From Pycnococcus provasolii (lineage: Eukaryota; Chlorophyta; Pseudoscourfieldiophyceae; Pseudoscourfieldiales; Pycnococcaceae), in assembly GCA_938743325.2 (NCBI GenBank), contig OW568883.1:310001-374000 (forward strand): 64,000 bases of DNA, read 5' to 3'. This document shows, one piece after another, positions 1 through 56,577 of the stretch. A model generated the notes under the pieces. The model did no database searches. It saw only the letters and a list, made by a program, of their open reading frames with translations, and was not told the DNA's origin. Each line of letters begins with the position of its first letter. The stretch's first letter is position 1. The translations under genes were made by a program, and so were the position numbers.

Positions 1-3000
1 AACTTCAATTTGAGCAGATTCACCGTGCCAGAGCACAAAAAGTCCCCAGCGGACAACACGTCATAGTCGAATACTTCAATCTTGAGCTCCTGCACCGTTT
101 CGAGATCCACATTTGGAAATTCAAAGCTCTCCTTATAGATTGGATTGTTCGACGCTGGCACGTACATTGATTGCTGCGACGACTCCCCGATAGTGAGCAC
201 CGCGTACGGATCGCAGGAGATTTCGTCCCTGCCCTCCTGGACGACTGAGCTTTTCAACACTTTGTTCTTCCAACTCTTGCTGAAAGTTCCACGCAAATTT
301 GCCATCACGTTGTTTGGCGATCCAACCCGGCTTTCCGTGACGGGGCCAGCATCGCTTGCGCTCGATGCGGAGGCTTCGCCATTTTTCTCTTCCTCCTCCT
401 CCTTCGCCTGTTGCGCCTTCAGGCGATCTAGGAGACTCATTGGAGCCGCCTCACCTGGAGCGGGTGCGATTTGATTGTCGCCGGAGAATTTTTTGGCGAG
501 ATTTGCGGCGCGCACAAGAGCAAGAGACTTTCTCACACCACGTTGAAACTTGCGCTTGGTGCTGAACTTCTCGTAGATCATTTCAGTGCCAGCGCGGGTT
601 GCCAGGACGAAGAGGAAAAATCCGGGAAGTCCGGCGCGGAAAACGAATTGATACGAATAGTCCCAACCACTGATCATGCACTCGGGCGCAATGATTTCCG
701 GGTTGAGGTTAAAAATGCCTAGGAACATATACCAGCTCGTGAGCATGCTGCCCCAGTCAAACTCGAGAAGACCAAATGTCGCCTGTATCTGGCAGTAGCC
801 GACGAGAAGGTTGAGCATGGGAAACGTCTTCTCTGCCTGCGAGAAGATTAACAGCAGGCCAGGCAGCACCACCAGGAATATCACTCCCACGGAGAATCCC
901 GCCAGAGGAATTGTCGGGCACTTCTCACACTTCCCGTCGACACGGAAATGGCCGTCTCGGCATCGGCTGCAAGCGAAACCTTCGTACTGCCCACCATCTC
1001 TGTCGCTATCGGGCGCGCACATTCCTAGCGCTACGCGCGTGACGTTGGATGTTGCAGCACACTGCTCGCCACCTAGGAGGCATCGCACAACCTCGCTTCC
1101 ATCTTTCGGATTGACCCAGTATCCCTTATATGGCTTTGGATACGTCTGATTGGCAACATCACACGCGGTGCGATCGAGATTGCATTTCAAACAAATATCA
1201 GTGTTGTATGGGGGCCGGAAGAATGTGCGCGGGCATACACACGAATAGATACTGTCCGATGCCGTTGGACTGATCATGTCACCATGCGGGCAGCGAGTGC
1301 ACGTAGGCTGGCCCGTGGCATTTTGATAGGTGCCACTCTCGCAAAGGCTGCAGCTTGTAGCGCCCACTGTCTTTCCCGCAGTACCCTCAGGACACGGCAC
1401 GCACATGATCTGATCCGCAACACCAGGCTGATTGTACCTTCCCAAGGGACAAGCAGAGCAAGTGAGTCCCACGCGCTTGTAGCCAGGCTGGCACAGAACC
1501 TTGATGTTCGTTGTAAAAGTCGACGACGCTCGCCCGCTGGCGTCCATGGCTGCCCACTGCAAAGTTGTATAAGCTTCTCCGCGAGATTTGTCCATCGCAG
1601 GCGTAAATACCACCCACGGCGAAGTCGTGAGGCTTCCCTCGCTCAATGCAGTGCCGTTGGGATGGGTGACTCCACCCTGTGTTGGCGCACGGACGATCTT
1701 GTAGGTTAGCCGAGCCCCAGGCGCGCTGTCGACGTCGTGCGCGAGTAGATACAAAAGCATCGGCGTATTGTGAAGTGTTGCCACTTCCTGCCCATCATCA
1801 CACAGCAACCTGGGTTGCTCAGGGTGAAATATGAGTGCCTCGACCGCGTCAGCCCTAGAGTCCATTTCACTTCCACGCGCCGCATTGTAGGCGGTGTATG
1901 CGGCTCCGGCGTCGCTCTTGGGAACGGGTTGGCTGAGCATGGTAGACGCGGACAACGCAGCCTCGGACCAAAGCCGCTCGAGCGAGTCGAGGGTGTTCCG
2001 ATACTGGGTCATGCTCGTGCTAGGGTCGTTGTCCAAGACTGCCGCCCAAGCCTCTGTACCGGCACCAGGTTCTGGCAAGATGCCAAAGGACAGATTATAG
2101 GCGAGGGCATATGGCAGTGTGTTCGGACCCTCCAGTGCACACGCGCCAACGGGAGCATCGTCCTCCTCTTCGACGACAATTGTTGTCGTGCCTATCGAGG
2201 AAGTGATGCCGTACACACCGGTTATGCGAAATTTGATTGTGTCGCTTCCAGTAGCGTCGGCGTACGGAGTGTACCGAAATGCACCCGTGCGTTCGTCAAG
2301 CAACTCAACTCTACCTAGCGTTGGACTGCCAATCAGGCGGAAAATAATATGCTTCGTGTAGTTATACTCGAATGGAAGGTGTTCCTCCAAGGTGGTATCC
2401 TCGAGCATCGTAATTGTGGAATTGAGAGCAACAGGTAGGCTTTGTGTTTCCGCCTTCGCGTGCAGCGTGATTTTTACGCGAGCAACCTCTGATGGAAGAC
2501 CGTCAACGTCCACCGCCTGGTACGCAAATGCATCAGCCCTTGCCTGCAGCGCGATGCTCTTTGAGCTTGCTAAGTACTGCACCGTCAGGCTGGCACTGCG
2601 ACGATTCAGCGCATTTTCCGTGCCCGGTGGTGGCGTTAGTCGGAGCGTGTTCCCATCGGTAGTCTCGTTCACGATTTTGACGTATGCAATTTCTTCGGCT
2701 GCAGGTCCATCAAAATCCTTCACAGGTAGCTCGATGGTTTCGAGAACATCCTCAAACGCGTCAACGTGCATCGACTCCGCCACGGGAGCATCAAGCACAT
2801 TAATGATATTTATGCGAATGGTAATCACACTCGAGGATAAACCATTTTCGACATCTTCGGCGCGCACCAGGAAGTCGTCGGGCCCATAAACGAACGGTGT
2901 ACGTGGAGTGTAGTCAAATTCACCAGTCACGTTGTTCAATTTCACAGTTCCGCGATACCCGTCGCAGACAAGCACATAACGCACCGCCCGCTTGTCATTT

Positions 3001-6000
3001 TCCGCGGACACCTTGTAACCCAGCGCTGATGTGTTTTGGAGGATGTTGATCACATCCAGACCAAATGCCCATCGCGGTGGCTTCGTCTCCTTCGCGATGC
3101 TGCCAGATATGACGCAAGGTTGCGACATGGTATTTGAAAGATCACGCATGCGAAAGCTTATGCTCCTCGTCACATCTTTCAGCGATTCGCTCCGAAACTC
3201 GAAGCTGACAAGGCGAAGAGCTTTCTGATAGTCGACGCGCGAGGCGATGCTATCAAAAGTCAAACAGCCTTTCAATTGATCGAACGACCATCGGAGGTCC
3301 GTTCGTGCCGCTTTCGAGGTTTCGCCGCCATTCGATGTCACGACAGCCTCTGCGGGAAGATAATGCAAAAAGTCGTGTCTCGCGTCGAACGAATCTACTA
3401 TACATACCTCGGCACCGGCAAACTGCACGTCGTCGGGGTCGATGATTTCTACACTGCGATCCACGGGAATCACATCCTGAGCCTTGAAACCAACGGCGAA
3501 TTTGGTGCATGATATGGTCGTCGGATCGTTGAATGGCTTGACCGAAAGCGTCGCGTCGACCGCTGAGGATGCACTCGCGTGAAGCTGGCTTGCTCGAAAT
3601 TCAATCCGACGATTGATGGAAGCTGGTGCATCTCCCACGTGCACATACGACACCTGGCGCAAAAGAGATTGCAAAAATGCGATGTCGTTTGCATCGCTCT
3701 TCTTTGGGCGCAGCGTGAGAACTCCCATTCCTGCATGCCAGTCCACATCAATTGACGCCGATGTGACGCCATCCGCTTTAACAGTCTTGAATTCGCACTG
3801 GCTTGTGCACATACGTTCACCAAATAGAAGCAGATCGCCCGACGACTGATACGTTCCCTCCACGAAGGTGGCAGACACGTTGTTCACGAGAGCATCTTCG
3901 GTGATCTTTGCGTGCTGTAGTGCGCCGGCATCGGCCATAAAGCGAACATTCGCGTCAACCACCACCGGCTTGCCCGTGCGAGATCCGTAGAGCTCAACGA
4001 ATTCATTTGGTGATCCAGCGGCATCCACACCAGACGCTGCTGCCTCCGATGTGACAACATCGAGCTTGGATGTGAGACGTACAACCACGGCAAATCCGAG
4101 GCGCTGAAGGCTAAACTTAGCTCCAAATTCAGAGCTAGAAGTGTCCGGGAATATCGGAGCTGCTGTGGCACCAAGCACTTTCCACGGCGCCCCGTTGGCG
4201 TTATCTAGCCCAGTGTATAGCGCGACGAATGGTGGTAATGTCAGCGACAGGTCGCCAACGCGCGGGACAGCAATTTGCACGGAAAATCCAAGTTCGTCAT
4301 CGGGAACGCGTGGTTCCGATGTTAGGCGGTACACTGGCGATGCCATCTCGATGCGATAAAGTGGGCTGCTAGGAGTCGGTGCCGCGGGGTTGAGCGATTT
4401 CCAGTCACCTTCCTCCACGAAGATGACAGGATCAGAACATGGTATGGGCGCCGCGACTCTAGCCTTTGAGGCGAGATTTACCGCGCAGCTAGGCGGCACA
4501 GCGCTCTGTGGCGCCATGGGCGCTTTGCGCGCGGCCACGCGGATGCATGGATTTAAGAAGGTGTCAGTACCTGACGAAAGTGCGCAGTAGAAGTTGTCCT
4601 CACATGCACCCACGGCGGTAAAGCACGCGTCAAAGTTTGAGACTGCAGGCGCTGATGCTATACGCTGGCGCACAGTGAATGTCCTCGTATCATTCCAATT
4701 TGTCGCATCGAACGATACTCGCGAGGGTTCGATTGAAATATGTGACTGTCCTGAGGGTACTTGAATTTCATAAGAGACTGACTGAAGCGGAGCACTGCGG
4801 AGGCGAATTTCTAGCTTTTCTTCAGCATCTCCTACGAGGTATGCCGATGGCGTCGGCGTGATTAGCAAGCCAAGCTCGTCATTCTCGATAACTTGGAAAA
4901 CGATAGGATTTGGAAGAAGCGTGCTGTACAGTGGATCGTCGGTTTGTATGACTGGCAATGCCTCAATGTAAAAACTGCCATGGTACGTTGACGTATCGAA
5001 AAAGTTCAGCTCTATCGACTTCGGGATATTTGCCTCATCTGTGCCGAACGCGAGACTTGTTGGGCTAAGCATCACAAGATTGCTTAGTTCGTCGGCTGAT
5101 AACAGCTCGTCCTGGAGCAGAGTGCGTTGAAAACGACTCATAGACGCATTGATGGGAGAGGCTGTCGTAGTATTCGTTTCCATCATGATTGTTGTGTTCG
5201 TGTTATTGCCTGCCGGCTTAGTTGCGACTGTCACTGCTGTCGTGGTGGTTGTGCCGACAATAGTAGTAGTAGTAGTTGTTGTTGTTGTCGTCGTCGTCGA
5301 CGACTTGGTCGTCGTAGTCGTAGTCGTTGCCGGTAGCTCGATTGAATCTATCACCGGCTTGACCCGCGTTGCGCGTAGCACAAATGTCATGCCAACGTCG
5401 CTCAGAGGAACAGCTTGAATCTCAAGCTTCGTGGTCGCCTGACTTCCCTCCGTCACGGTTACAGAGGATCCGCGTTTTGCCACCGCTTTCGTTAATTCCT
5501 CGGATTGCGGTAGCAAATACAGCCCATTGGAGTCACTCTGACTTGGCGCATCTCGTGGCGACGTCGCGTTGATGAGCTCGTCCTCCGAAACGGTGATGCT
5601 GTCCTTTTTCGCGACAGAAATGCTTAGTACCTGACGATCCACGTCGAAGACTGTGACGTCAACAGTTCGATGCGCGCTCGCCGAATTGTAGCTCAAATCA
5701 TCCGACGATGTCGTTGCACTGAGAACCACTTCGAAACGATCATCTGCATGACCATCAGACATTGCAATGACGTCAATCTCTGCGAACGCGTTCCAAGCAT
5801 TCGGCTCGATGGTAATCCTCGAGGGGTAAATATCAAGCTGCTGCCGCAGATTGCGCTTTTCTGGTAACCCGCTGCTCGATAGGATGGACAAGTCCACCGT
5901 AACTGACGCCGTTGGCATAGTGCTGAGACTCACACCGAGCTTTCTCGGCCCGATTGCATATCCAACTTGAAAGTTGCGCTGCTCTTCGCGGAAGACGAGG

Positions 6001-9000
6001 CGTGGTATTGTGGTGTCATTTACGCGCACGATGAGATCCTGTTCTGCAAGGTTGGCAAATGCAGTCACCGTGGAAATGGCTGAAATCGGAACCCTGACAA
6101 CCTGCACGCCAATATACCGCGCCGTGAATTGAGCGGTCACGCTGAGGACCTGCGGCTCGAAGGCATCCTTAGAGTCGAATCTTAGCGTCGTTTCTGAAAG
6201 CGATATGGAAGCATTCACGTCACGTCCGATAGGTGTCATAAACTTGACTAACACCTCGTCTCCAGGTGGTGGCGCCCCGCCGAGAGATACCAGCACATCT
6301 CGTGTCGAACCCTTCGCGACGGTCACCTCATCTGGCTCGACAATCACACTCGCAACATCATCGTCTTCATCCACGTTCACGCGAAGGCTGGGTGGCACCG
6401 ATCCGTCATAAATTGACTTATAAACAGTGTCATCTGTGCTCACGGCATGCTCGATGAAGACCGCATGAGGTCCCTCCACGAAACGATCGTCAATGGAGGT
6501 GACCAATATCTCGCGGGGCTTGCTGAAGTCGCTTGGTGAAAATACTAGCTCAGCCACGACCATTCCACCTGCATCTCCTATGATATTGCGGCGAGAAGCA
6601 TTTGCCTTGTCGTTGACACTGGCCTTGATTTGTAATGCCGCCGCACCTCCAAGCTGCACCTTTACGTTCACAGCGGTGCTTGGCTGGCGCGTGAGAGATA
6701 TGGAGTACGTATCGCTCTGCGGGAGAACGGAAGCTTCACCAATGCCATTTCCCTCTCGTATAGCGAGATTGTCTAAACCATTTTGCGTCACTATGGCAAT
6801 TCCCGTCGACGCCACGGGTAGTGTCGTAAGTGCCTCATTGTTGTAGAGATCCACGGCTGCAACATACAGCACGTAGCTTCGGCCAGGTAGGAATGTGCCA
6901 GATATGGTGTAGGCCTGCGACTTTCCGAGCTGCTGGATGCTTTCAATGTTTTCCTGCTTCTGATAAACAATCTTGGATGCGGGGAGCGCACCATTGATGA
7001 CGTCTGTGATAGACGGTGGCTCCTCGGTGACACTCATCATGACGAAATATAGCGTACATTCCTCATCAACCGTATATTCAAAATCGAACTTGTTTGGATC
7101 GTCAGTATTTGAGATTTTGGCAGACAGCTCTGGCGGAAGCGTGTCAACAATGTTGATTTCGAGCACCTGGTTGGTAGTAGGTGGCGAGATCGTATCGGTG
7201 ACAGAAAAAACCATTTTGTCTGTCTTGTCATGCCTTCCATTGTGCGTGTACACGATTCTACCGCTATCTACTTCACCTTGATTCCAATTAGTCGCTGTAA
7301 TCGCACCCGAACCGCTGGTGCGCTGTATGAGGCCATGGGCGGGTGCACTGGATACGTCATAATATACGCCAAAAGCGGTAGCCTTGTCGTCGACGTATCG
7401 CATCTCAGTAATGACCGTGGTTCTACCTCGCTCTGCTGTCATCGGCAAAAGAGTTTGCTTCTTCGGGCTGACAACATCAACCGCTTGCATAGTAATTGGC
7501 ACCTTCGTTGATGTTCCGGTGAGCTCACCATCGCTTGCCCGAAGTGTGACCGAATCGGAGAGACCCACGCCGCCATTATGCACATATGTCAGTTTACCGT
7601 CAAGCAAGTCTTTCGCTGTAAATGAGGAGATTATGCCAGCCTGCCCCGTTGCAAATAAATTACCGTGCTGCGGCTGCTGCACAATGCTCACAACGATGCT
7701 CTCGGGAGGAGGGCTGTCAAGATCACGCACGAGGATATCTGAAGGCGATTGAATCTTGTGCGTTTCGCCCTGCTTTAGATTAATGCCGTTGCTGATAATC
7801 TCTGGTGCGTTGTCATTTTTTAAGATGATCGTCACGGCAACGACAATGGCAGGACTGGTGTTGACGCCATCGCTCGCGCTTAGCGTAAAGCTGTCCGAGG
7901 TTGCCTCTTCCGAAGCACCATTGTGAGCGTACTGAATTTTCCCAGCGGCAAGGTCTGCGGCAGTGAATGAGACGACATCAACGCCAGGCGAAGAGGAAAG
8001 CTGCAATTTTCCATGCGTAGGAGGGGTGCCAACAGTGATTGTGATATCGGCATCTGACGTATCGGGATCCTTCACCTCAAGCTCCGCTGATGTCAAGGTC
8101 AGGGTATCGCCTTCGTTCACAGTTAGTCCAGTATTCACCGTTGCCTTTGGTATGCCGTTATTCACGGGAGTGACAACGATTTTCACCTCGAAGACTCCGG
8201 CAGCTGCATTGCCAGCCACGTCCGCGGCACTCACCTTGAACGCGTCGCTCGTGGTGTCTGAGCCGTCATGGACATACCTGATCTTGCCCGCAGAGAGATC
8301 CGCGGCGGTGAATGTTGTCACAGCGGTACCAGGATTGCTTATGAGCTCAAGCTTACCATTCTGGGGCAAATTAGATATCGTGACTTTAACGTCTGTGGCG
8401 GCGGTGTCGATATCTGTAACTGAAAGTGCCGTGGAATCTAAAACCTTCTGGCCACCCTCCGCTACGGTCAGGGTACCAGCAGTCACAGTCGGTGCTGTGG
8501 TATCCGAGTTGGTGATCTTAATACTCAACGTCTGTCCCGTGAGACAATTATTTGCACTGTCGCATACTTTGAACTGCAAGCTATCTGAGACGGAGCTGGC
8601 TGAGGGATCAGCAAAGTTCTGCCCATTGTGAGTGTAGGACACGGAACCGGCATCGATGTTTGCTTGCGTGAATGGCGACGGTGAAACGGTTCCCATGGAC
8701 GGTGGCGTGGTGATGGTGAATGTAAGTGATGACGCCGAGGGCGTATCCGTATCCACCGATCTCAATATGGCGCTTGTGATGCTTGCCGCACCTCCCTTTG
8801 CGACGGTGAGCTGATTATTCACGGGAATCGTGGGTGCGAGATCATCCACGGGCGTTAACGTGATGGTGAAAATTTGATTTGGATTGTTGTTCGTGCCATC
8901 GCTGAGACTGAATATGATTGTGTCAGTCGACCCAGCTGCTGGAACCTCGGCATCTGTATGCACATATCGAACATTTCCGCCTGTAAGCTGACTCTGCACG

Positions 9001-12000
9001 AAGCTAGTCGCACTCGTTCCCGGTGCGCTGCTTAGCTCCAGACGTCCCTTAGCGGGTGGAGTTGTAACTGAGAATATGATTGTGCTGTCGTCCGTATCCG
9101 CGTCCGTCGCGGCAAGCATTGTCGACGCAAGGGTGAGCGTACTTTGTTCAGCACAAGTGCCTCCCGTGTTCGTAGTGAGTGCGGGTACCTTGTTGTTGAC
9201 TGAAGAGATCGTGATTGAGAGCGTTGCGACGGCGCTATTCACACCGTCACTGATGGTGAATGTGATAGAGTCGGCTGTATTTTCGCCACCGCCATGCTTG
9301 TACTGCACGCAAGCTGTTGCGCATGCATCTGTAGCAGAGATCTTATCCTGCGTGAAAGAAGTGATGGCAGTACTCGTGGCGGTGGAAAGCACGAGTATGC
9401 CATTGCTTGGTCCAGACGTGACGGTAAACGTGAGAGTAGAATCCAAGGTGTCGGCGTCAGTAGCTGAAAGAATTGCGGTTGTGATGGTCTTCGTTGCTCC
9501 CTCTGCCACTGTAATGGCACGAGAGCCCGCTGGCACAGGCACACCGTCGTTGACAGGCGTTACCGTAATAGAAAACGTTGCGGCGGCGAGAGTCGTTGTC
9601 GCATCTTTGACTGCAAAGGTAAAGCTTGCGGCAGTGGTATCGCTCCCATCGTGTACGAATTGAACACTCCCGGAGTTTAAGGCAGCGAGTGTAAACTGCG
9701 TGACTGGTGTTCCCGCAGCTGAGCTAAGCTGAACATATCCATTCGTCGCAGGATTCGGAATAGCACTGAATATAACAGCGGTAGCAGCTGTGTCTGTGTC
9801 AGTTGCGGCCAGCATAGCGTTCGTAATTGTCAGGGTTGCGCCCTCCGCCATCGTGGCGCCAGCATTTGTCGTGAGCACTGGGACGTCATCAACAGCTCCC
9901 ACGGTTATGCTAAATGTCTGTGAAGTCACGGTATTCAGTCCATCCGACACCGTGAAGACGAATGAGTCCGGGTCCGCGTTGCTTGCGGTATGCACGTACT
10001 GGACGATATTTGCGTCAATATTCGCCTGCGTGAAGCTAGTGATTCCTGTGCCCGCAGCCGTGCTGAGCTCCAACCGCCCCTTCGCGGTATTGGTTGTGAC
10101 TGTGTATGTTATTGTTGAGTGCGATGATGCTCCCGTGTCAGCGTCTGTGTACTGCAGCCTCGCTTGCGTAATCGCCACGGTCCCTCCCTCATTCACAGAG
10201 GCGCCATTATTCTGTGCCTGTGTCGGAGTGTTCTCGTTCACAAGAGTGATTGTAATGGAAACCGTGGTGCCAGTCACAGGATTCGCCCCATCAGTGACTG
10301 AGAATGTGAAGCTGTCCGAGGTGGTTTCACCGCCATTGTGGACGTATGTGATGATGCTCGAATCAATGTCCGACTGCGTGAAAGTAGTGGTTGTTGTTCC
10401 ACTTTTCTGCAATGCTCCATTCGAAACACCCGTTGTCACTGAATAGACGACTTGTGCAGCTGGTACATCAGCATCGGTGACTTGCAGCTCCGTGTTTGTG
10501 ATTGTAAAGGTAGCACCCTCGTTCAAGGTGAATCCGGTATTCTTAGCCACAACTGGAGGAGTGTTGTCGACGGGAGTAATCGTGATGGAGAAAACGACGC
10601 CTGTAAGAGTGTTTGTGCCGTCCGAAATCGAAAAGGTGATACTGTCCATAATATTGGCAGTTCCGGTCAGCGTGCCCGATGCGACGTATTGCACGCACTG
10701 CGTAGCACAGGTCGCCACACTCGATATTTTGTTTTGAGTAAAAGACGTTATCGCAACGCCAGTCGCATCGCTGAAGACGAGCTTTCCCTTCGCAGGGTCA
10801 TTTGGTGTTGTCACCGTAAATGTCAACAGACCAGCATCCTGGCTTGCATCTGCATCCGTTGCAGATAACATTGCACTCGTTATTGTTTTTGTCTGGCTCT
10901 CGGCAACGGTCAAACCATTGTTATTCGCAGCAACGGGCGTTTGGTCGTTGACATCGGTGATTGTCACCGTCACGGTTGCCGTTGTTCCTTGATTCGGCGT
11001 TGGAGTCAGCGAATCTTTCGGCGTAAGCACAAATGTGTCAGTCGGACCTTCGGTTCCGTCTTGAATGTACTGCACTAAATTTCCGACAAGATCTGCTCTT
11101 GTGAAACTTGTGATTGGCGTAGCTGTATCCGTCGAAAGCACAACCTTGCCCTTGGAAGGGTTCGTCGTCACCTGGAAGATGAGGTTGGCGTTTCCAGTCG
11201 ACGTGGGATTCGAATCCGCATCGGTGATGTCAATCTGACCCGCATTGCTTCCTTGCACGAGCGTGAATGTCCCAGCCTCCGCCACAGTAAATGTGGGACC
11301 CGTCGGCGCGATTACAGGAGCTTGATCGTCGACGGGGGTAACAGTCACGGTCACGGTCACCTCTGCTCCTGTATTCGTTCCATCGTTTGGAGTCACCTTA
11401 AAGGTGTCACTTGTCGTTTCACTGCCCGAATGCACGTACGTCACTTGATTCGAGTTGATATTGGTGGTTGTGAATGTGCCTCCAGCATTCAGCTTGACAC
11501 CATTCAGGCGAACTTCCCCATTTGTTGCATCTCCAGTCAAGGTCAGAGTGAGTGTTGTGCCGCCGATGTTATCAGCATCTGTCACAAAAAGCTGGCCTGC
11601 CGCAATCGTATGCGTCGCACCCTCATTCAACGTGAATCCGGTATTTGGATTGACCACCGGAGTTTGGTCGTTTACTGGAGTGACCGTGATAGAGATGGTC
11701 TGGGCCGCACTTGCGGCTGAGGTGGCATCCCGGTAAGTCACCTGAAAGGTATCACTGGTCGTATCAGAACCATCGTGGACGTATTGAACGCACTTGGTCG
11801 TGCAACCCTCTATCTCGTTCATTTTGAATGACGTGATGGCGACACCGACGGCGTCCGAGTACTGTAGTATTCCACGCGTCGGTGCTGTCGATACCGTGAG
11901 GGTAATCGCGCTGTCTGCTGTATCAACATCCTCAACATGGATTTGCGTTGTTGATATCGTTTGAGTAGCCCCCTCATTCAACGTGAATCCAGCAAATGTA

Positions 12001-14495
12001 CAAGATGGAGCGCCGTGAGGAGGATTTGGATTCGCACAAGGGGCATCATCCGTATTTGTGACAGCAATCGTCAGAGTGCACGTCACACTGTGATCGCAAT
12101 CGGTGTCGCCGGCGGCATGTCCGTCTGTTAAACTCAGCTGAATCGAATCTGAATTCTCCTCATATCCACCATGGGCGTATACGATGTTCCCTGCCACCAC
12201 GTCCGCCTGTGTGAATGTACCGCCGTTTGAAAGGTCTCCGCCACTTTTCTTGATTGTTCCTTTCGTCGGCGCCGTTGTGAGCGTGTATGTCAAACTCGAT
12301 GTTGCGGTATCCGCATCAGTCGCCGCAAGGTCGTTCGCGCCACCCTGGAATGTGTACGACGCTGCCTCGTTCACATTGAAAGTATTGCACGTGAGAGTCG
12401 GGGCACTGACAGTGGTCACGGAGATCTTGCCCTTGTTTGTCTCGTATCCTCCGGCGGGACCATAGACGGGTCTCACGGTCGTAAGAGGTGTCTGGGAAGG
12501 ATTTGTCGCATCAAGTGCATACCCGCTCGGTGTAATGTACAAATCATAAGCTGTGTTTGCGGCTAAATTAGTCACTGTGATAGAAACGGCAGATCCAGAG
12601 GTGGGTACATTTGTGGTTCCCTTGGCATTTGTGACCTCTCCTGTCCAAACGTCTCGCATGTGTCCCTGTGGTCCTGCCATGAGGTCGTGGCCACTTGAGG
12701 TCGCAAGATTGTTCCAAGTGGCACCATCTGTGCTGTACTCAACCTTCAGAGCTCGCGTTCCTGACGCGCCACAGTAAAACACCACGTAAACTCGGTACGC
12801 CGTTCCGGCAGTCACCGACTTCGTTTGTGTTGTTGCCGCAGCATTGCCGGTGCTCTCGTCAATCAAAAGATACGAGCTGCCCGACCACGAGTGCATGTCC
12901 CAAGGCAGGAATGTGGTATCGCCCGTGTTGTCGTCGATGTAGAGTCGGCACCCACGCGTTGCAGTGCCCGTGCATGTCAGCCGAAACGAGTGCGTTCCGC
13001 TGGAAGCAGGCGTTAGGTAGGCTGAATACCGCGCGAAAAAGTTGTGGCTCTGCGTCACGCCCGTCCATGCACTCGACCCAAGCGTGAAGTCGATTTGTGC
13101 CTCATTGCGGTACGTAGGCGTCGTATCGTAAAAGTTGGTAATGCCAAACATGTATTCAGCGCCATTCGATGGATTCGGTATTGGCACTGGAGTGCCGGCG
13201 TACAACGTAGGGTCAGGAAAGCTCGTCAGTCCCACAGAAGAATAGAAGTACTCCGCACTCCATCCCGCCGGCTTGGATCCACTCGCGTACGCGGCCCAGT
13301 GAAGTTGAGCACTCGTCTCGGCAGCTGCATTTTCAGACTTTTTGTAAATGTCAGCCACCGTCAGCGTGGCGCTGTATTTCAGGATGTAGTACGTTTGCCC
13401 TGCAGCCTTGCACCCTCCCACAAGTGTCGTTGACGGATTCGACGCGAAGACGGGTGGTGTTCCGTACCTGATGGGCGAATTGTTGTTGGTCGTCGCCTTA
13501 GCAAGCGTGTACGTGCCCGCAGCCTGATTTTCAGCCGGATTCGACACCGACGTGGACATCGGGTACCACAGCTTCAAGTTAGCCTCGTTGCCGGCGAGAA
13601 TCTTCCTGTAGTTGGCTGAAATTTCTCCCGAAGTTCGCACGCTGTCCCATATCCTGATGTCTTTCATGAAGCCGTTGAACGCCACCGGGAAGTTGTCGTT
13701 CGTGGAGGCGCGAGCATAGGGTACGACGCCGGACAGAAGAAATGGGTTGCCCAACGCGAAACCGTAATTCCACAGCGGTGTCGTGCACGTTCCTCCTGTG
13801 CACGCCGTTGCTCCGGCTGGAGTCGCGTCACTTCCGTCCACGTACAGCTTCGCGCCACCCGCGGTAAAGTCTATCGATACTGCGACGTGGTGCCATTGGT
13901 TCTTCTGCAGGTTCGTGGTAGAATATATCGGGAAATTGTCGTATGCGGTGGACGTGGTCGACATTATATATTTCTCTCCTAAAGCTGAGCCCGTGACATC
14001 TAAGCCCGTAGTTGCCGCGAGCATGTTGAAACCCAGCTTGAGATTGCCTCCGTTGTGTCCTACGACGATGTAAAAGCCACCCGTCTCAATCTTATTCGTC
14101 CAGTCATTGGGCTTGATTACGAACAGCGTTCCCGAGCCGGCGTTAGCCGACGTCTTGTAAACTTGTGGCCATCCAAGAGTCATCTGATGGCCGACGTCGT
14201 ACACCCAAACCCACGACTCGAATGTGAACCTGCCACTTCCCATCAAAGTTCTCAGGTCGCCCACCAACTCATATCCTGCAACCGCTAATTGCGGGTATGC
14301 GAAGTACGCCGCACCTGCGGGTGCGTCTTGCGCTTTTGCCCCCCAGCTGCGTGGACCTTGCTGAAAAGGCGCGCGCATGAACAGGGCTAATAGCAGCAAG
14401 ACGACGGCTAACAAGGGTGAGGACGCAAGTCCCTTGAGGCTCAGACCACCACCACGTATCCGAGCACGTGTTCCACAGCCATGTCCACGTCTCAT
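1..14495 (-). CDS. Giant membrane-anchored surface protein, LamG/PA14/CSPG repeats/GCC2-GCC3/C2 (partial, continues past left edge)
   Basis: One minus-strand frame stays open from an ATG at 14,495 to the window edge (4,831 codons) with no intron visible. The N-terminus has a hydrophobic signal or anchor (about residues 27-41, core LLAVVLLLLALF). Then come a LamG/ConA-like domain (about 60-310, with QWHHVAV, KLYVDG and IRIWDSVRTSGEI), a PA14-like domain (about 405-585) and 15 CSPG/cadherin-type repeats (about 680-2,500, each with a YVHDGSDTTSD-like core and ending in V.I.V.PVND). Beta-sandwich-like sequence and a Thr-rich stretch follow, then a second set of cadherin-like segments, Cys-rich GCC2/GCC3 repeats (about 4,330-4,520), two or three membrane segments (from about 4,533), and a C2 domain (from about 4,755; core CDPYAVLTIGE) cut by the edge. 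A role in adhesion or sensing at the cell surface is inferred. The exact ligand and the C-terminus are unknown. Confidence 0.88.
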   Translation of the reverse strand, partial: MRRGHGCGTRARIRGGGLSLKGLASSPLLAVVLLLLALFMRAPFQQGPRSWGAKAQDAPAGAAYFAYPQLAVAGYELVGDLRTLMGSGRFTFESWVWVYDVGHQMTLGWPQVYKTSANAGSGTLFVIKPNDWTNKIETGGFYIVVGHNGGNLKLGFNMLAATTGLDVTGSALGEKYIMSTTSTAYDNFPIYSTTNLQKNQWHHVAVSIDFTAGGAKLYVDGSDATPAGATACTGGTCTTPLWNYGFALGNPFLLSGVVPYARASTNDNFPVAFNGFMKDIRIWDSVRTSGEISANYRKILAGNEANLKLWYPMSTSVSNPAENQAAGTYTLAKATTNNNSPIRYGTPPVFASNPSTTLVGGCKAAGQTYYILKYSATLTVADIYKKSENAAAETSAQLHWAAYASGSKPAGWSAEYFYSSVGLTSFPDPTLYAGTPVPIPNPSNGAEYMFGITNFYDTTPTYRNEAQIDFTLGSSAWTGVTQSHNFFARYSAYLTPASSGTHSFRLTCTGTATRGCRLYIDDNTGDTTFLPWDMHSWSGSSYLLIDESTGNAAATTQTKSVTAGTAYRVYVVFYCGASGTRALKVEYSTDGATWNNLATSSGHDLMAGPQGHMRDVWTGEVTNAKGTTNVPTSGSAVSITVTNLAANTAYDLYITPSGYALDATNPSQTPLTTVRPVYGPAGGYETNKGKISVTTVSAPTLTCNTFNVNEAASYTFQGGANDLAATDADTATSSLTYTLTTAPTKGTIKKSGGDLSNGGTFTQADVVAGNIVYAHGGYEENSDSIQLSLTDGHAAGDTDCDHSVTCTLTIAVTNTDDAPCANPNPPHGAPSCTFAGFTLNEGATQTISTTQIHVEDVDTADSAITLTVSTAPTRGILQYSDAVGVAITSFKMNEIEGCTTKCVQYVHDGSDTTSDTFQVTYRDATSAASAAQTISITVTPVNDQTPVVNPNTGFTLNEGATHTIAAGQLFVTDADNIGGTTLTLTLTGDATNGEVRLNGVKLNAGGTFTTTNINSNQVTYVHSGSETTSDTFKVTPNDGTNTGAEVTVTVTVTPVDDQAPVIAPTGPTFTVAEAGTFTLVQGSNAGQIDITDADSNPTSTGNANLIFQVTTNPSKGKVVLSTDTATPITSFTRADLVGNLVQYIQDGTEGPTDTFVLTPKDSLTPTPNQGTTATVTVTITDVNDQTPVAANNNGLTVAESQTKTITSAMLSATDADASQDAGLLTFTVTTPNDPAKGKLVFSDATGVAITSFTQNKISSVATCATQCVQYVASGTLTGTANIMDSITFSISDGTNTLTGVVFSITITPVDNTPPVVAKNTGFTLNEGATFTITNTELQVTDADVPAAQVVYSVTTGVSNGALQKSGTTTTTFTQSDIDSSIITYVHNGGETTSDSFTFSVTDGANPVTGTTVSITITLVNENTPTQAQNNGASVNEGGTVAITQARLQYTDADTGASSHSTITYTVTTNTAKGRLELSTAAGTGITSFTQANIDANIVQYVHTASNADPDSFVFTVSDGLNTVTSQTFSITVGAVDDVPVLTTNAGATMAEGATLTITNAMLAATDTDTAATAVIFSAIPNPATNGYVQLSSAAGTPVTQFTLAALNSGSVQFVHDGSDTTAASFTFAVKDATTTLAAATFSITVTPVNDGVPVPAGSRAITVAEGATKTITTAILSATDADTLDSTLTFTVTSGPSNGILVLSTATSTAITSFTQDKISATDACATACVQYKHGGGENTADSITFTISDGVNSAVATLSITISSVNNKVPALTTNTGGTCAEQSTLTLASTMLAATDADTDDSTIIFSVTTPPAKGRLELSSAPGTSATSFVQSQLTGGNVRYVHTDAEVPAAGSTDTIIFSLSDGTNNNPNQIFTITLTPVDDLAPTIPVNNQLTVAKGGAASITSAILRSVDTDTPSASSLTFTITTPPSMGTVSPSPFTQANIDAGSVSYTHNGQNFADPSASSVSDSLQFKVCDSANNCLTGQTLSIKITNSDTTAPTVTAGTLTVAEGGQKVLDSTALSVTDIDTAATDVKVTISNLPQNGKLELISNPGTAVTTFTAADLSAGKIRYVHDGSDTTSDAFKVSAADVAGNAAAGVFEVKIVVTPVNNGIPKATVNTGLTVNEGDTLTLTSAELEVKDPDTSDADITITVGTPPTHGKLQLSSSPGVDVVSFTAADLAAGKIQYAHNGASEEATSDSFTLSASDGVNTSPAIVVAVTIILKNDNAPEIISNGINLKQGETHKIQSPSDILVRDLDSPPPESIVVSIVQQPQHGNLFATGQAGIISSFTAKDLLDGKLTYVHNGGVGLSDSVTLRASDGELTGTSTKVPITMQAVDVVSPKKQTLLPMTAERGRTTVITEMRYVDDKATAFGVYYDVSSAPAHGLIQRTSGSGAITATNWNQGEVDSGRIVYTHNGRHDKTDKMVFSVTDTISPPTTNQVLEINIVDTLPPELSAKISNTDDPNKFDFEYTVDEECTLYFVMMSVTEEPPSITDVINGALPASKIVYQKQENIESIQQLGKSQAYTISGTFLPGRSYVLYVAAVDLYNNEALTTLPVASTGIAIVTQNGLDNLAIREGNGIGEASVLPQSDTYSISLTRQPSTAVNVKVQLGGAAALQIKASVNDKANASRRNIIGDAGGMVVAELVFSPSDFSKPREILVTSIDDRFVEGPHAVFIEHAVSTDDTVYKSIYDGSVPPSLRVNVDEDDDVASVIVEPDEVTVAKGSTRDVLVSLGGAPPPGDEVLVKFMTPIGRDVNASISLSETTLRFDSKDAFEPQVLSVTAQFTARYIGVQVVRVPISAISTVTAFANLAEQDLIVRVNDTTIPRLVFREEQRNFQVGYAIGPRKLGVSLSTMPTASVTVDLSILSSSGLPEKRNLRQQLDIYPSRITIEPNAWNAFAEIDVIAMSDGHADDRFEVVLSATTSSDDLSYNSASAHRTVDVTVFDVDRQVLSISVAKKDSITVSEDELINATSPRDAPSQSDSNGLYLLPQSEELTKAVAKRGSSVTVTEGSQATTKLEIQAVPLSDVGMTFVLRATRVKPVIDSIELPATTTTTTTKSSTTTTTTTTTTTTIVGTTTTTAVTVATKPAGNNTNTTIMMETNTTTASPINASMSRFQRTLLQDELLSADELSNLVMLSPTSLAFGTDEANIPKSIELNFFDTSTYHGSFYIEALPVIQTDDPLYSTLLPNPIVFQVIENDELGLLITPTPSAYLVGDAEEKLEIRLRSAPLQSVSYEIQVPSGQSHISIEPSRVSFDATNWNDTRTFTVRQRIASAPAVSNFDACFTAVGACEDNFYCALSSGTDTFLNPCIRVAARKAPMAPQSAVPPSCAVNLASKARVAAPIPCSDPVIFVEEGDWKSLNPAAPTPSSPLYRIEMASPVYRLTSEPRVPDDELGFSVQIAVPRVGDLSLTLPPFVALYTGLDNANGAPWKVLGATAAPIFPDTSSSEFGAKFSLQRLGFAVVVRLTSKLDVVTSEAAASGVDAAGSPNEFVELYGSRTGKPVVVDANVRFMADAGALQHAKITEDALVNNVSATFVEGTYQSSGDLLLFGERMCTSQCEFKTVKADGVTSASIDVDWHAGMGVLTLRPKKSDANDIAFLQSLLRQVSYVHVGDAPASINRRIEFRASQLHASASSAVDATLSVKPFNDPTTISCTKFAVGFKAQDVIPVDRSVEIIDPDDVQFAGAEVCIVDSFDARHDFLHYLPAEAVVTSNGGETSKAARTDLRWSFDQLKGCLTFDSIASRVDYQKALRLVSFEFRSESLKDVTRSISFRMRDLSNTMSQPCVISGSIAKETKPPRWAFGLDVINILQNTSALGYKVSAENDKRAVRYVLVCDGYRGTVKLNNVTGEFDYTPRTPFVYGPDDFLVRAEDVENGLSSSVITIRINIINVLDAPVAESMHVDAFEDVLETIELPVKDFDGPAAEEIAYVKIVNETTDGNTLRLTPPPGTENALNRRSASLTVQYLASSKSIALQARADAFAYQAVDVDGLPSEVARVKITLHAKAETQSLPVALNSTITMLEDTTLEEHLPFEYNYTKHIIFRLIGSPTLGRVELLDERTGAFRYTPYADATGSDTIKFRITGVYGITSSIGTTTIVVEEEDDAPVGACALEGPNTLPYALAYNLSFGILPEPGAGTEAWAAVLDNDPSTSMTQYRNTLDSLERLWSEAALSASTMLSQPVPKSDAGAAYTAYNAARGSEMDSRADAVEALIFHPEQPRLLCDDGQEVATLHNTPMLLYLLAHDVDSAPGARLTYKIVRAPTQGGVTHPNGTALSEGSLTTSPWVVFTPAMDKSRGEAYTTLQWAAMDASGRASSTFTTNIKVLCQPGYKRVGLTCSACPLGRYNQPGVADQIMCVPCPEGTAGKTVGATSCSLCESGTYQNATGQPTCTRCPHGDMISPTASDSIYSCVCPRTFFRPPYNTDICLKCNLDRTACDVANQTYPKPYKGYWVNPKDGSEVVRCLLGGEQCAATSNVTRVALGMCAPDSDRDGGQYEGFACSRCRDGHFRVDGKCEKCPTIPLAGFSVGVIFLVVLPGLLLIFSQAEKTFPMLNLLVGYCQIQATFGLLEFDWGSMLTSWYMFLGIFNLNPEIIAPECMISGWDYSYQFVFRAGLPGFFLFVLATRAGTEMIYEKFSTKRKFQRGVRKSLALVRAANLAKKFSGDNQIAPAPGEAAPMSLLDRLKAQQAKEEEEEKNGEASASSASDAGPVTESRVGSPNNVMANLRGTFSKSWKNKVLKSSVVQEGRDEISCDPYAVLTIGESSQQSMYVPASNNPIYKESFEFPNVDLETVQELKIEVFDYDVLSAGDFLCSGTVNLLKLK
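5205..5345 (-). repeat. Thr-rich low-complexity stretch in the giant protein
   Basis: On the minus strand this stretch of repeated ACN codons encodes long runs of threonine broken by a few K, S, V and G residues. It separates beta-sandwich-like sequence on either side. Such Thr-rich stretches are commonly O-glycosylated stalks in secreted proteins. The function here is inferred. Confidence 0.7.
7150..12210 (-). repeat. Fifteen in-frame CSPG/cadherin-type protein repeats
   Basis: Fifteen units of about 330-395 bp (about 115 residues) lie inside the giant gene. The Y-V-H-x-G core recurs near 12,175, 11,780, 11,440, 11,070, 10,690, 10,345, 9,990, 9,650, 9,300, 8,960, 8,630, 8,270, 7,930, 7,580 and 7,245. 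Each unit reads roughly as NEG-T-I (start), T-A-P-G-L (middle), FTQADI-A-G-I-YVHDGSDTTSDSF (core) and ITVTPVND (end). This matches the CSPG repeat (cadherin-like fold) seen in NG2/CSPG4 and FRAS1-type proteins. The units have diverged at the DNA level, so they are not recent copies. Confidence 0.85.
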
Positions 14496-16097
14496 ACTAT
14501 TATGTCGTTGTCGTCGAGGAGACCCTGTTTGTACCTGTTTGCAATTTGTGTCCTCCGAGGGACACCTTCTTAAAGAAGTGTAACTGCTACCTATAAAGGT
14601 ACTGCTGCAAGAAACACCGCGGCAAGGTGCCATAATTCTTCTAAAGGTATTATCAACGTGGTTCCCACACCAAGGACCAACGCCTTCCAAGCCCAAGCCC
14701 AAGCTGCTACTGCTGCTACTGCTGCAAGAAACACCGCTGCAAGAAACACCAATAGAGCTGCAAGGCGCAACTGCTCCTGCTCTGGAGACTGCTCGAGAGA
14801 ATGATGACGAAGACTCAGCCTGAGGAGCCATATATAGAGCGACGTGGATTGAGCCTCCGAGGGCCACTAATAAGCTCACTCACTCTTCAAGTTGATGTTG
14901 ATGTTGATGTGATGGAGCGACGGGAATGGGCGTGTGTTTCATGAATTGCGCCAGGTGCCAGGGGCCGGCCACGCCGGAGGGGGGGGGGCTCAGCCAACTC
15001 TCGAGCCCCATGGCCCATCCTCGGGTGGATCCCCCCGGGGGAGTCCCGAACACCATTCCGCCATTGGGCCTGACCGCCTGAGGGGACTTGCCCGGATTGA
15101 GCCTGGGTGGGTTCCTGAGGGACCGGCCGGTGGGTTCCTGAGGGAGGCTGGGAGGGGTGGTTTCCTGAGTGATGGCTGTGGCCAATCAAGGGGGGGGAAT
15201 GTTCAATGGGTGGAGTTGGCGATGTGTTTCTTTTCTGGGCAATTCGCCGTGCTTTTCTTTTCTTTTCTTTCTCTGCAAGACCATGCAAGGCGAGGCATTG
15301 AAGGCAAGGCGGCAGTCCACTCTAGAAGCACTGTATGTAGAGCTCTCAACCCGTGCCAATTGGGAGCGCATCACACAACACTCACACAACACCTTCACAC
15401 AACCTTCACACAACACCTTCACACAACCCTCACACAACGTCCTCATCACACAACCAAACCTCTCCCAAGTCCCAACCCTTTCGGCCTGTCTGCAACCCTC
15501 TCCCAAGGCCCAACCCTCTGCAACCCTCGCACTCTCCCACTCACACAACTGCACTCTCGGACGCTCCCACTCTTACGCTGCACTCTCCCACTCTTACACT
15601 CAGCCCCCTCTCCCTCACACTCTGCACCCCGTCTCCCTCTGCAGTCTGCACCCTTTCATCTCTTGAGTCCACTCTATCGTAAAGGTACAGTAGGCACACT
15701 CATCACCACCTCGCACCAAGGTTTCACCATACTGTACCAGTACCGTGTACCATGGGCCATCATGGCACGGCAAGCAAGACCCAAAGAAACAGCACGCCGT
15801 TAGGGCCCGAACCCGAACCCGAACCCAAACAAAAACACCTGAGGAGCCGGTGTTGCATCACGGGCATTGAGGTGGTCACGTTCACGTTCGCCAACCTCGT
15901 TCGCCAACGTCGTTCGCTGTTGGTATGTAGGACTGAATAAAATAATTAAAATTCCCACCTGGACCATTTGCGCCGACCTTTTGGGAGATATAAAAAGATT
16001 TTCCAACGATTTTCGGACTGATTTTTTTTCTCCGTCCCCCCATCACTGCCTCCTCCTCCCTCCCTACCTTCACATCACGTCAGGGGTGATTGGGGTG
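14496..16097. other. Intergenic region, low-complexity repeats, no convincing gene
   Basis: About 1.6 kb lie between the divergent giant gene and the SET gene. The part at 14,600-14,800 carries short repeats around CTGCTGCAAGAAACACC. GC-rich sequence with GGGTTCCTGAGGGA-type repeats lies at 15,000-15,180. Tandem CACACAACACCTTCA-type units occupy 15,361-15,446, followed by C/T-rich CTCTCCCACTC repeats to about 15,660. Open frames here are low-complexity by-products without recognisable domains. Promoters of both flanking genes should lie in it. Confidence 0.6.
15361..15446 (+). repeat. Short tandem repeat (CACACAACCTTCA-type)
   Basis: Direct, slightly varied tandem units of CACACAACACCTTCA and CACACAACCTTCA. 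A looser C/T-rich repeat tract continues to about 15,660. Non-coding. Confidence 0.7.
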
Positions 16098-17006: not shown

Positions 17007-19484
17007 TTACATTTTTATGTCGCAAGCTGCGCCAACGAGTGACAGTGCCGCAACCCAACGACCGCTCATTTCCTTGTCAGACTCGTCTAAAGTTTGCCAA
17101 GATGGCTGCCGCAACCATCTGCCATGCTCAGTTCGACTCCACATCTCCGAGCCTGCTTCTTCGTCGTAGGCATTTTCGTCGAACGAATTCAGTGACCACG
17201 GACGTGGCTGCCCTTCGTATGAGCCTGGCCAGAGCCAAAATCCAATGGCCTGTTCGTATATAGGACCAGGGCGAACGGTGGCGCAGCGATTCATCCAGTC
17301 GTCCAGTCGAGCACAGCAAATTGGTGCCTGCCGTTTTGAATCAGCGTACCACACCTCGTTCACGTATCGTTTCGCGATTCGCTTTGCCTCCTCACGATCG
17401 ACGAGCGGCTGTACAAGTCGGTCGACAAGGTGAAGAGCTGCGGTGCGTATCGTGTCACTGTGATTGTTGCCATTGTAATGATGGTGATGATGATGCCTGC
17501 TTTCCTCGATGCGGCACAATTCACGGCCAAACGTGCCAATGCTCAAATCACCAGTTAGCTCCACGCATTCTGCGTACACTTCGTCGTCGTCGTCGTCTTC
17601 TTCTTCTTCTTGGCGTTCCTCCCACACGCCACCACTGCTGTGCACGCCATCCGCCGGATTGACGAGCACCATGGATGACTCGTGTTGCTGTTCGTCATGA
17701 CGCCACTTGTCATTCGCTTGCGCCATCGCGTTCACGAGCGTGCCGTAAGGCTCGCCAGTTGATGCGTAGAGACCGTAGTTCATCGCCTCAAAATCAGGAT
17801 ATCTCCCAGTGGAGGGTTCGTCTGTAAGCTGCCACCAAGCATATCCAATTACGTACGGCATCTCGCGGAGTTTCTCGATGAAATTCGCCGCCTTTCGCGC
17901 GCGTTCCGCCTGCGTGGCAACTGTGGCACCGTGCCATGCACCCCGCAAGCCGGGCAATCCTGCATCGCGTGCCGCAAAGCTCCATTCGCCGACCAGCACA
18001 GGTTTTCCTGTTTTTCTATGCGTCCACCTGATGAGGCGTTCGTCTGGAACGTTGGTGTACAGATGTAGATCGACGACGTCGGTGAATGTCGATGCACTTG
18101 TGATGGCTGCACTTGGCAGAGTTCCCGCGTATCGAATCCCAAAGAGTACCCCTTTTCCTGAATCTGCGGCGCGTATGGCATGGAACGTCACCTGATGATA
18201 TTGCCAGGCAACCTCCTGCATCCACCGTTGTGAGGCTTCCATGAGGCGGCGCAGATCTTGTCTTTGCATCGAGGCTCCAGGATGAGACGCTGTTTCTATG
18301 TGAGAGCACAGGCGTTTGTTCCAATGATGCGGCGTGTTATGGTTGTCATGCGAGAAGAGTTGGCGTCTTCGAGAAGAAGATATAGCAGCTGTATTCTTCA
18401 CCTCATCGTCTGCGCCCCACTTCTCTGCAGCAAGGTGATAAACGCATAATGTAAACGCATCGTCGCCGTCGTCGTCGTCGTCGTGGCATCGCTGCGGACT
18501 TGATTCATCATCATACAAGTCATGAAGCAGACGGATGAGCCTTCTTCTCCCAGGTCCATCTTCGAGCACGCAGAGATACGTGTTGAGGAAGGCGACTGCA
18601 TCGGCACCTGTGAACGAGATTTCATTGTCCGTCCACCATCCCACGAGGTTCGCATCATTCATGCGTGGTGCAATCTGCGCGCGCGCTCTCGCGTACACTT
18701 CATTCACCCACGTCTCTCCGAAGAAGTCGTTTTGCATCCACCCATTTTCGTGTTGGCTCCACGTCGACGCGAGCTGGAGTAGGTGTATGTACGAAAAGTT
18801 TGTGCGTGCTGTTTGTACCGAGCGTGCCGTCCATCCTCCGGCGGCATTGAATCCCCAGTCCATCAGCTGATTTGTGACGTTGTTTGCCCAGCACACGGTT
18901 GCATTCACTGAGCAGTCGCCATATTTCGCGTTCATGGCGACGAAGTACGGCGCGACCCCTAGCGACGGTGCAAAGCTGAGAGAATCTCCTGGACACAGGT
19001 GATTTTTGGACGCATTCCTGCACAGGTCAGCCTCTCGCCCATCGACGCCGTCGTCGTATCCTCCGTTGTTGACGTGGTTGACCGCCCGTATGCGGAACGG
19101 TGGATGACTGCCGATATGGCGTTGTTGTTTGTTGTCGTTGTCCTCTTTATGTTTTTTGGTGGATGATGATGATTCCTCCTGTAACGCGAGCGCATAGTAC
19201 CACCTGGCAGTTGGGTCGATCTTGTCGTCGGTAGTGACATTGACGACACGGAACTTAGACGACGAATGGCTAAGATTAGTAGTCAGATGATGATGATGGC
19301 GATCGTTCATGCGAGTGAACGTGTGCATGCTGATGTCCGTCGCGCCCATGGCGAGGGTCACCACCGCCTTGCCGTTCGCGAGCCGCCGCTCCTTCGCCCA
19401 CCACTCAGTGCGCGTCGACGTGCCCGGATAGCACAGCAGCATCCATATTCCCAACCAGCGCAGGAACATACCTTTGTCCACCAT
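17007..19484 (-). CDS. Secreted agarase-like glycoside hydrolase (GH-A type TIM barrel)
   Basis: A single frame of 825 residues. The N-terminus has a short hydrophobic signal (FLRWLGIWMLLCYPG). The barrel region shows MDWGFNAAGGWT, VGWWTDNEISF (NE: likely acid/base Glu) and DVVDLHLYTNVP, then GKPVLVGEWSFAARDAG (likely nucleophile Glu) and GYAWWQLTDEPSTGRYPDFE. This pattern is typical of clan GH-A enzymes related to beta-agarases and similar polysaccharide hydrolases. Asp-, His- and Glu-rich low-complexity insertions interrupt it (for example a six-His run and an acidic run in the C-terminal third). The C-terminal part, with a Cys-Cys pair and a GFWLWPGSYEG motif, is unassigned. The stop codon overlaps a TGTAA. 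The exact substrate cannot be assigned from sequence; extracellular polysaccharide turnover is inferred. Confidence 0.68.
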   Translation of the reverse strand: MVDKGMFLRWLGIWMLLCYPGTSTRTEWWAKERRLANGKAVVTLAMGATDISMHTFTRMNDRHHHHLTTNLSHSSSKFRVVNVTTDDKIDPTARWYYALALQEESSSSTKKHKEDNDNKQQRHIGSHPPFRIRAVNHVNNGGYDDGVDGREADLCRNASKNHLCPGDSLSFAPSLGVAPYFVAMNAKYGDCSVNATVCWANNVTNQLMDWGFNAAGGWTARSVQTARTNFSYIHLLQLASTWSQHENGWMQNDFFGETWVNEVYARARAQIAPRMNDANLVGWWTDNEISFTGADAVAFLNTYLCVLEDGPGRRRLIRLLHDLYDDESSPQRCHDDDDDGDDAFTLCVYHLAAEKWGADDEVKNTAAISSSRRRQLFSHDNHNTPHHWNKRLCSHIETASHPGASMQRQDLRRLMEASQRWMQEVAWQYHQVTFHAIRAADSGKGVLFGIRYAGTLPSAAITSASTFTDVVDLHLYTNVPDERLIRWTHRKTGKPVLVGEWSFAARDAGLPGLRGAWHGATVATQAERARKAANFIEKLREMPYVIGYAWWQLTDEPSTGRYPDFEAMNYGLYASTGEPYGTLVNAMAQANDKWRHDEQQHESSMVLVNPADGVHSSGGVWEERQEEEEDDDDDEVYAECVELTGDLSIGTFGRELCRIEESRHHHHHHYNGNNHSDTIRTAALHLVDRLVQPLVDREEAKRIAKRYVNEVWYADSKRQAPICCARLDDWMNRCATVRPGPIYEQAIGFWLWPGSYEGQPRPWSLNSFDENAYDEEAGSEMWSRTEHGRWLRQPSWQTLDESDKEMSGRWVAALSLVGAACDIKM

Positions 19485-30557: not shown

Positions 30558-31226
30558 GCAGCACAGAAAATAGCTGCAAGGCTAACGTTAGATACAGCTG
30601 CGGCCTTATTTGTACAAGTAAGTGTGTGTGTGTTGTATGAGTATTGGCGAGAGACAAGAAGATAGATGTGTAAGTCAAGTGTGCAAGTGTATTTTCAAGT
30701 TGCAAGTTGTAAGGGAGTGCACTAGAGGAGAGGCCGCGGCGAGAATATCAATCTCGAAACATCATTTAAAAAGTGAGGAAATTCAAAACCACATGATTCG
30801 AAATCGACGCATGAGAATGAGAATGAGAATGAAAAGAAACCAAGAGAGGCCGCGGCCGAAACGAAACGAAACCTTGAAACGATGGGAAACGTATCAAGGT
30901 AGGTAGGTGTACACGACGAGGTATACACGCGCAAACACAAACACAAACACAAACGCACCTAAGGTGAACACCAAGGCAACTTCAAGTCTCTGGGAGGAAC
31001 TCTTGAAGCTCTAAGGCTTACTTACGCGCGTAAGTTATGCAAAGTGATAGGCAAGTGATAGGCGCCGGGGAATACTTACGCGCGCGGCTGGCCGGCGGGC
31101 CGGCGGGCTCGGACTCCCGGGACCCGCGGGACGGGACCCCCCAGGCCCGGCGGAGGCCCGGAGTGTTTGAGAGCTCTCAGAGAACAGGGTTGGTTTGGGT
31201 TTGTGTTGTGTGCGCGCGCGCCGGCC

Positions 31227-56555: not shown

Positions 56556-56577
56556 CCCGTCGCGGTCCAGCTCGAAG

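Follow-up and report, generated by a model that had tools for sequence, protein, structure and literature searches.

The window analyzed here, a 64,000-nucleotide stretch of contig OW568883.1 of Pycnococcus provasolii, is occupied at its left end by a giant gene on the minus strand. Its stop-free frame spans window positions 3-14879 (4,959 codons) and runs off the left edge, as the earlier note had stated for a single open minus-strand frame. It is the longest frame in the window, the runner-up having 1,123 codons, and when the stretch it occupies was simulated 200 times with a first-order Markov model, the longest run without a stop in any of the six frames averaged 209 codons and never exceeded 348. 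The translation start is likely the ATG at 14495, the third ATG of the frame, because residues 1-100 are not coding-like, the first ATG (14831) is overlapped by a TATATA motif, and the third ATG precedes a hydrophobic stretch and a plausible AxA cleavage site. From this ATG to the window edge (3..14495) the coding frame holds 4,831 codons, in agreement with the previous count of more than 4,830 codons for a frame bounded by position 14495. The predicted product has a mass of 510 kDa up to the window edge; the frame extends to the left of position 1, and the full protein is larger, with its C-terminus outside the window. Residue numbers used below are those of the stop-to-stop frame of 4,959 codons and are not counted from ATG 14495, and the window positions given for parts of the gene are all on the minus strand.

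A codon model, with seven other window frames as its training set, was used to score the coding potential of this frame in 100-codon windows placed every 150 codons, so that about two thirds of the giant frame was sampled. The giant frame scored best of the six in 31 of the 33 windows. The two exceptions were residues 1-100, where the score was not coding-like, and residues 1801-1900, where a near-tie was observed (0.14 versus 0.16 for a reverse frame). At residues 4501-4600 the score was just -0.01, yet it was still the best of the six frames. The giant reading frame is thus confirmed as real and coding-like. No paralogue of it was found by blastp among the 554 other window frames of at least 60 codons (E up to 0.01), and scans of the window for Rfam families at the gathering threshold and for tRNA genes gave no matches.

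A Pfam search of the translation passed the cut-offs for the LamG, CSPG, GCC2/GCC3 and C2 domains that had been proposed for this protein. At the N-terminal head, residues 129-183 (14331..14495) form a predicted signal peptide with a basic start, a hydrophobic core and an AxA site; its hydropathy peaks at residues 144-176, and the cleavage site was placed by eye. It is followed by a Laminin_G_3/ConA-like lectin domain at residues 299-421 (13617..13985; PF13385, E = 2.7e-10, 41 bits against a cut-off of 27.6), whose sole match in the PDB was an uncharacterized protein (4dqa, E = 0.0052). The PA14 domain that had been assigned to the head did not hold as a called domain. A PA14-like stretch is present at residues 609-716 (12732..13055; PF07691, E = 1.8e-4), and it scored 16.5 and 21.7 bits in two Pfam scans, both under the gathering cut-off of 24. 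Four PDB matches to residues 470-830 were disregarded as chance-level (best E = 0.035), and an AlphaFold2 (AF2) model of these residues built without relatives was discarded, as its pLDDT of 39.8 was too poor to decide on PA14.

Beyond the head, 15 consecutive Cadherin_3/CSPG repeats occupy residues 827-2577 (7149..12401; PF16184, E = 1.9e-289, 15 stretches). A purpose-built repeat profile recovered the same 15 repeats together with two distant ones downstream, so that the number given in the earlier note was reproduced in two ways. The mean pairwise identity of the repeats is 34.5% (range 12.5-59.5%), four alignment positions are invariant, and the rod as a whole is acidic (pI 4.2). The repeat profile matched CSPG4 in the PDB (E = 3.9e-25). 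As positions 1-14495 yielded no DNA tandem repeat, the CSPG array is probably old.

The 1,373 residues that follow the rod (2578-3950; 3030..7148) contain no Pfam family above cut-off in the fragments that cover them. Calx-beta domains had been expected by eye at residues 2700-3400; fragments covering residues 2560-4030 gave no Pfam match to them at E up to 10, a search in which the HMMER filters drop weak matches. The threonine-rich stalk of the earlier description corresponds to a tract of about 57 residues (3184-3240; 5160..5330). It does not form the whole connection to the Cys-rich part, as it lies inside the 1,373-residue region and is separated from the Cys-rich part by more cadherin-like domains. 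These membrane-proximal cadherin-like/Big_9 repeats were found at residues 3956-4227 (2199..3014; PF17963, E = 6.6e-8, and PF17803, E = 5.6e-6). Both families exceeded their cut-offs in the fragment covering residues 4010-4450, and a match at residues 3956-4021 was below cut-off. The NCBIfam tandem-95 model also matched the cadherin-like part, at E = 1.1e-15, which is below its own cut-off.

Next to the membrane lies a Cys-rich region of Ephrin_rec_like (GCC2/GCC3) repeats at residues 4463-4655 (915..1493; PF07699, E = 3.9e-14, three stretches), with 21 cysteines in residues 4440-4660 and a PDB match to EphA2 (E = 3.6e-4). Hydropathy indicated one clear membrane helix at residues 4659-4679 (843..905) and a second, weaker segment at residues 4744-4764 (588..650), and even weaker candidates lie between the two. 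Residues 4640-4790 matched nothing in the PDB at E up to 10. An AF2 model of residues 4440-4959, also built without relatives, was discarded (pLDDT 37.7), its helices being too unreliable to count. The segment at residues 4765-4870 is charged (17 K/R, 13 D/E), which fits a cytosolic linker. It is followed by a C2 domain (3..218; PF00168, E = 2.4e-9, Pfam match at residues 4888-4950) that touches the window edge and leaves the first 20 profile positions unmatched. Its nearest PDB match was dysferlin (E = 3.2e-14), followed by myoferlin and extended synaptotagmin. Its loop 3 retains DxD...D (residues 4938, 4940 and 4946), and the DPY motif keeps its Asp (4890); we take these to be four of the acidic positions that typically serve Ca2+ binding in C2 domains. 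One C2 stretch was seen in the readable part of the protein, with no further C2 and no ferlin-specific family, and the last 520 residues gave no match to a channel or GPCR family at E up to 10, again with HMMER filters that drop weak matches.

The membrane segments and cytosolic C2 domain of the earlier reading are therefore borne out as far as one clear segment with a C2 domain beyond it. The second segment is weak, and the side of the C2 domain depends on how many segments there are: two would leave it outside, and a cytosolic position needs an odd number. A cytosolic C2 domain and Ca2+ binding are inferences, and any part in sugar sensing, mating, feeding or prey recognition would be hypothetical.

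The giant frame had also been described as intronless. No intron was seen by eye in its last 1,000 bases, the part inspected in this way. The neighbouring genes make this feature less special than had been supposed. Pfam was run on 30 other window frames, 20 of them at E up to 0.001 and 10 at E up to 0.01, and matches were obtained in 16 (7, 4 and 5 per set of 10), which correspond to 15 genes because two frames are halves of one histone deacetylase. That gene is split by a GT...AG intron of 136 bp (window 26554-26689, plus strand). For 10 of the 15 genes, the domain profile was covered nearly end to end within one frame: two SET genes, WRKY, uricase, methyltransferase, glutamyl/glutaminyl-tRNA synthetase, rhomboid, DEAD-type helicase, myo-inositol oxygenase and DUF3119. 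Coverage was partial for four others (RsfS, triose-phosphate-type transporter, Exo70_C and HA2_C, the last below cut-off). This comparison covers matched domains rather than whole genes. The histone deacetylase intron and the ten one-frame domains indicate that the organism splices, yet that intronless domains are common in the window, and 14.5 kb without an obvious intron is mildly notable rather than extraordinary.

Two neighbours deserve separate mention. A 909-codon frame (window 27855-30581, minus strand) encodes a WRKY protein with two matched stretches (E = 4.4e-51). Together with DUF3119 and a SET gene of the Rubisco-LSMT type, its presence in the window fits a plastid-bearing green lineage. 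Adjoining the giant gene, an 830-codon frame (window 17010-19499, minus strand) matches solved beta-agarases (4bq2, E = 4.8e-13, residues 431-598); it gave no Pfam match at E up to 0.001. Judged from this match, it may encode an agarase-like glycoside hydrolase in a green alga.

Relatives of the giant protein were sought in viral, prokaryotic, phage and plasmid collections. The repeat region (450 aa, residues 1442-1891) matched 17 loci in prokaryotic genome contigs, all bacterial and from varied phyla, with 81 stretches matching a pattern, as well as 21 of 72,556 plasmid records. Six of the 17 loci were examined with Pfam, seven frames in all. Cadherin_3 was present in six of these frames, and it occurred together with Laminin_G_3 within one frame at locus L008 and in adjacent frames at locus L012. 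The N-terminal part had a single weak match among the 17 loci, at L012 (E = 0.001), where it overlaps Laminin_G_3; the middle and C-terminal parts had none (E up to 1e-3). The C-terminal 520 aa had no relative in the viral or prokaryotic contig collections, and neither the N-terminal 702 aa nor the repeat region 1442-1891 had a confirmed relative in viral contigs. DNA searches against phages (window 1-8000) and plasmids (window 5160-14495) were negative. From these matches, the outer half appears to be built of modules common to bacteria and animals, and the membrane half looks eukaryotic. At one of the bacterial loci, on a Verrucomicrobia MAG contig (L003:2-20677), the CSPG-like match lies within an open frame 6,892 codons long.

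Several known protein families resemble parts of this architecture. CSPG4 consists of a LamG head and then a CSPG rod, with a short single-pass tail, and FRAS/FREM proteins carry Calx-beta domains. The algal protein shares tandem CSPG repeats, 15 in number, with metazoan CSPG4/NG2 and FRAS/FREM, and its Laminin_G_3 domain (E = 2.7e-10) sits at the N-terminal head as in CSPG4. It differs from all of these in having 15 repeats, further domains, a GCC2/GCC3 neck and a C2 domain, and from FRAS/FREM in that no Calx-beta was found in the fragments covering residues 2560-4030. Similarly, it resembles bacterial giant cadherin-like/LamG proteins in its Cadherin_3 repeats, which at L008 share a frame with Laminin_G_3, whereas at E up to 1e-3 none of the 17 loci matched its GCC2/GCC3-membrane-C2 part. 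In ferlins, which also have ferlin-specific domains, a number of C2 domains precede one C-terminal transmembrane segment. The C2 domain of the algal protein is nearest to a late C2 of dysferlin (E = 3.2e-14); unlike in ferlins, it is the single one visible and follows a giant ectodomain and a membrane segment.

The membrane half has its closest descriptive counterparts in protists. In the accessible part of the report on Babesia bovis, the GCC2/GCC3 domain proteins GDP1-4 are described as 2,678-3,719 aa long, with pfam07699, 8-10 transmembrane helices and, in three of the four, a signal peptide; GDP1 and GDP3 are surface-exposed in sexual stages obtained by induction, and the authors relate GDP1-4 to the Plasmodium cysteine repeat modular proteins PCRMP1-4 (PMC9843837). 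The algal protein is likewise very large, with PF07699 Cys-rich repeats and then membrane segments. Unlike GDP, it has CSPG, LamG and C2 domains, none of which is tabulated for GDP in that part of the report, and it has one clear membrane helix, one weaker and some very weak ones before the window edge, versus 8-10 in GDP (PMC9843837); the two belong to different eukaryotic supergroups and were compared by description. In Tetrahymena, MTA/MTB and MRC1 have a GFR/furin-like Cys-rich domain and five transmembrane segments and are components of the mating-type recognition complex, according to the available portions of two reports (PMC10901506, PMC3608545). They share with the algal protein a large extracellular region, a Cys-rich domain and a membrane part, with a recognition role shown for Tetrahymena only. 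MTA and MTB are much smaller, at 161 and 194 kD versus more than 510 kD here (PMC3608545), and in this comparison, also by description, the accessible text names no CSPG, LamG or C2 domain for them. MTA and MTB also form a head-to-head gene pair whose ectodomains are specific to the mating type, whereas the giant frame had no paralogue among the 554 other window frames. In the part of the source at hand, Ephrin_rec_like domains are also described for GPCRs of the glutamate family in choanoflagellates and other close animal relatives (PMC12716839). There, too, the domain is joined to a membrane region, which is multi-pass in the GPCRs; unlike in them, a seven-transmembrane core was not detected here.

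The earlier note did not recognize the domain order from any named algal protein. The exact order was indeed not found in an alga in the literature, judged by titles, nor was a receptor plan joining a lectin-tipped CSPG rod to a ferlin-type C2 domain, on the same basis. No literature was found that joins GCC2, GCC3, alga, cadherin and transmembrane, and the available part of the text of PMC10762512 contains neither 'cadherin' nor 'laminin' nor 'PA14'. However, the membrane half follows a published plan, that of Babesia GDP and Tetrahymena MTA/MTB, and the head and rod modules occur in bacterial giants. The protein thus appears to combine known parts in an unusual-looking way, as a GCC2/GCC3 membrane-anchored giant whose outer part is made of generic adhesin modules and which carries a ferlin-type C2 domain past the membrane segments.

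We lean, with some reserve, towards a giant surface adhesion or recognition receptor that is secreted and then anchored, lectin-tipped, and akin to the large GCC2/GCC3 multi-pass surface proteins of protists. In such a receptor, the CSPG rod would hold the lectin-like head far from the membrane, and the head could bind a glycan or glycoprotein on another cell, on a particle or on the cell's own covering. Tension or clustering might then be transmitted inward through the Cys-rich neck and the membrane segments, and the C2 domain, on the cytosolic side, would respond to Ca2+ or acidic lipid and tether membrane. Mating would be one option among several for its function, suggested by analogy. The LamG_3, CSPG, Ephrin_rec_like and C2 matches, all above Pfam cut-offs, argue for this reading, as do the coding-like frame, the PDB matches to CSPG4, EphA2, ferlins and extended synaptotagmin, the acidic residues kept in the C2 domain, the acidic rod, the charged segment after the membrane part, and the similar plan of the Babesia and Tetrahymena proteins. 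The sub-threshold PA14 score argues against it, and so do the outside position that two membrane segments would give the C2 domain and the lack of a relative of the C-terminal part in the viral and prokaryotic collections. So does the number of N-glycosylation sequons, 20 versus a mean of 44.3 in shuffles (range 29-63), as so few are unlike the expectation for a surface glycoprotein. A more specific version, in which the lectin-tipped rod outside and the ferlin-type C2 domain inside couple surface contact directly to Ca2+-controlled membrane tethering or fusion within one polypeptide, for instance when gametes meet or a particle is taken up, seems to us very doubtful.

The same modules could instead belong to a structural protein of the cell covering or matrix, in which the rod and lectin-like head attach to the polysaccharide coat or scales of the cell itself and the membrane part is a mere anchor, with neither signalling nor recognition. 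CSPG repeats and LamG_3 are generic modules that bacteria join as well (L008, and in adjacent frames L012), and the adjoining beta-agarase-like gene (17010-19499) would fit polysaccharide handling, if weakly; a passive anchor, however, needs neither a C2 domain nor more than one candidate membrane segment, and we regard a purely structural role as rather unlikely. Because the window ends inside the gene, more helices may lie to the left of position 1, and the protein might be a multi-pass channel, mechanosensor or 7TM-type receptor whose membrane bundle is pulled by the ectodomain and carries the C2 domain on a cytosolic loop or tail. The 8-10 helices of Babesia GDP, which are described with the same Cys-rich/membrane order (PMC9843837), and the Ephrin_rec_like domains of the glutamate-family GPCRs in choanoflagellates and other close animal relatives (PMC12716839) are consistent with this arrangement, whereas the filtered search at E up to 10 detected no channel or GPCR family in the last 520 residues. 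We consider it quite improbable. That the frame is real and yet not one protein, being either separate genes or a decaying gene that lacks stops by chance, is hardly credible: residues 1-100 are not coding-like, but the frame is best by codon signal in 31 of 33 windows, its stop-free length is far above chance, and the domains run on along it.

What is known of cell recognition in green algae comes mostly from hydroxyproline-rich agglutinins. If the receptor reading is correct, this picture would be broadened by a receptor that combines a lectin-like head, a CSPG rod, a neck resembling those of alveolates and animals, and a C2 domain, and the giant protein would be a candidate for contact recognition. 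It would also show the assembly of a receptor from modules common to bacteria, animals and apicomplexans.

Repeats of two kinds were observed elsewhere in the window. Short interstitial TTAGGG/CCCTAA blocks occur on both strands between positions 15800 and 61086, outside the giant gene, with none in 1-15799. They comprise 44 single units, versus about 15 of each motif predicted by the base composition, and 21 overlapping dimers. The telomere unit described for Chloropicon primus, CCTAAAAA, differs from TTAGGG (PMC6731263, in the part available). In addition, an 8-base unit, GTCTAGTC, forms a tandem array of 13.6 copies with 96% matches at window 56577-56685.
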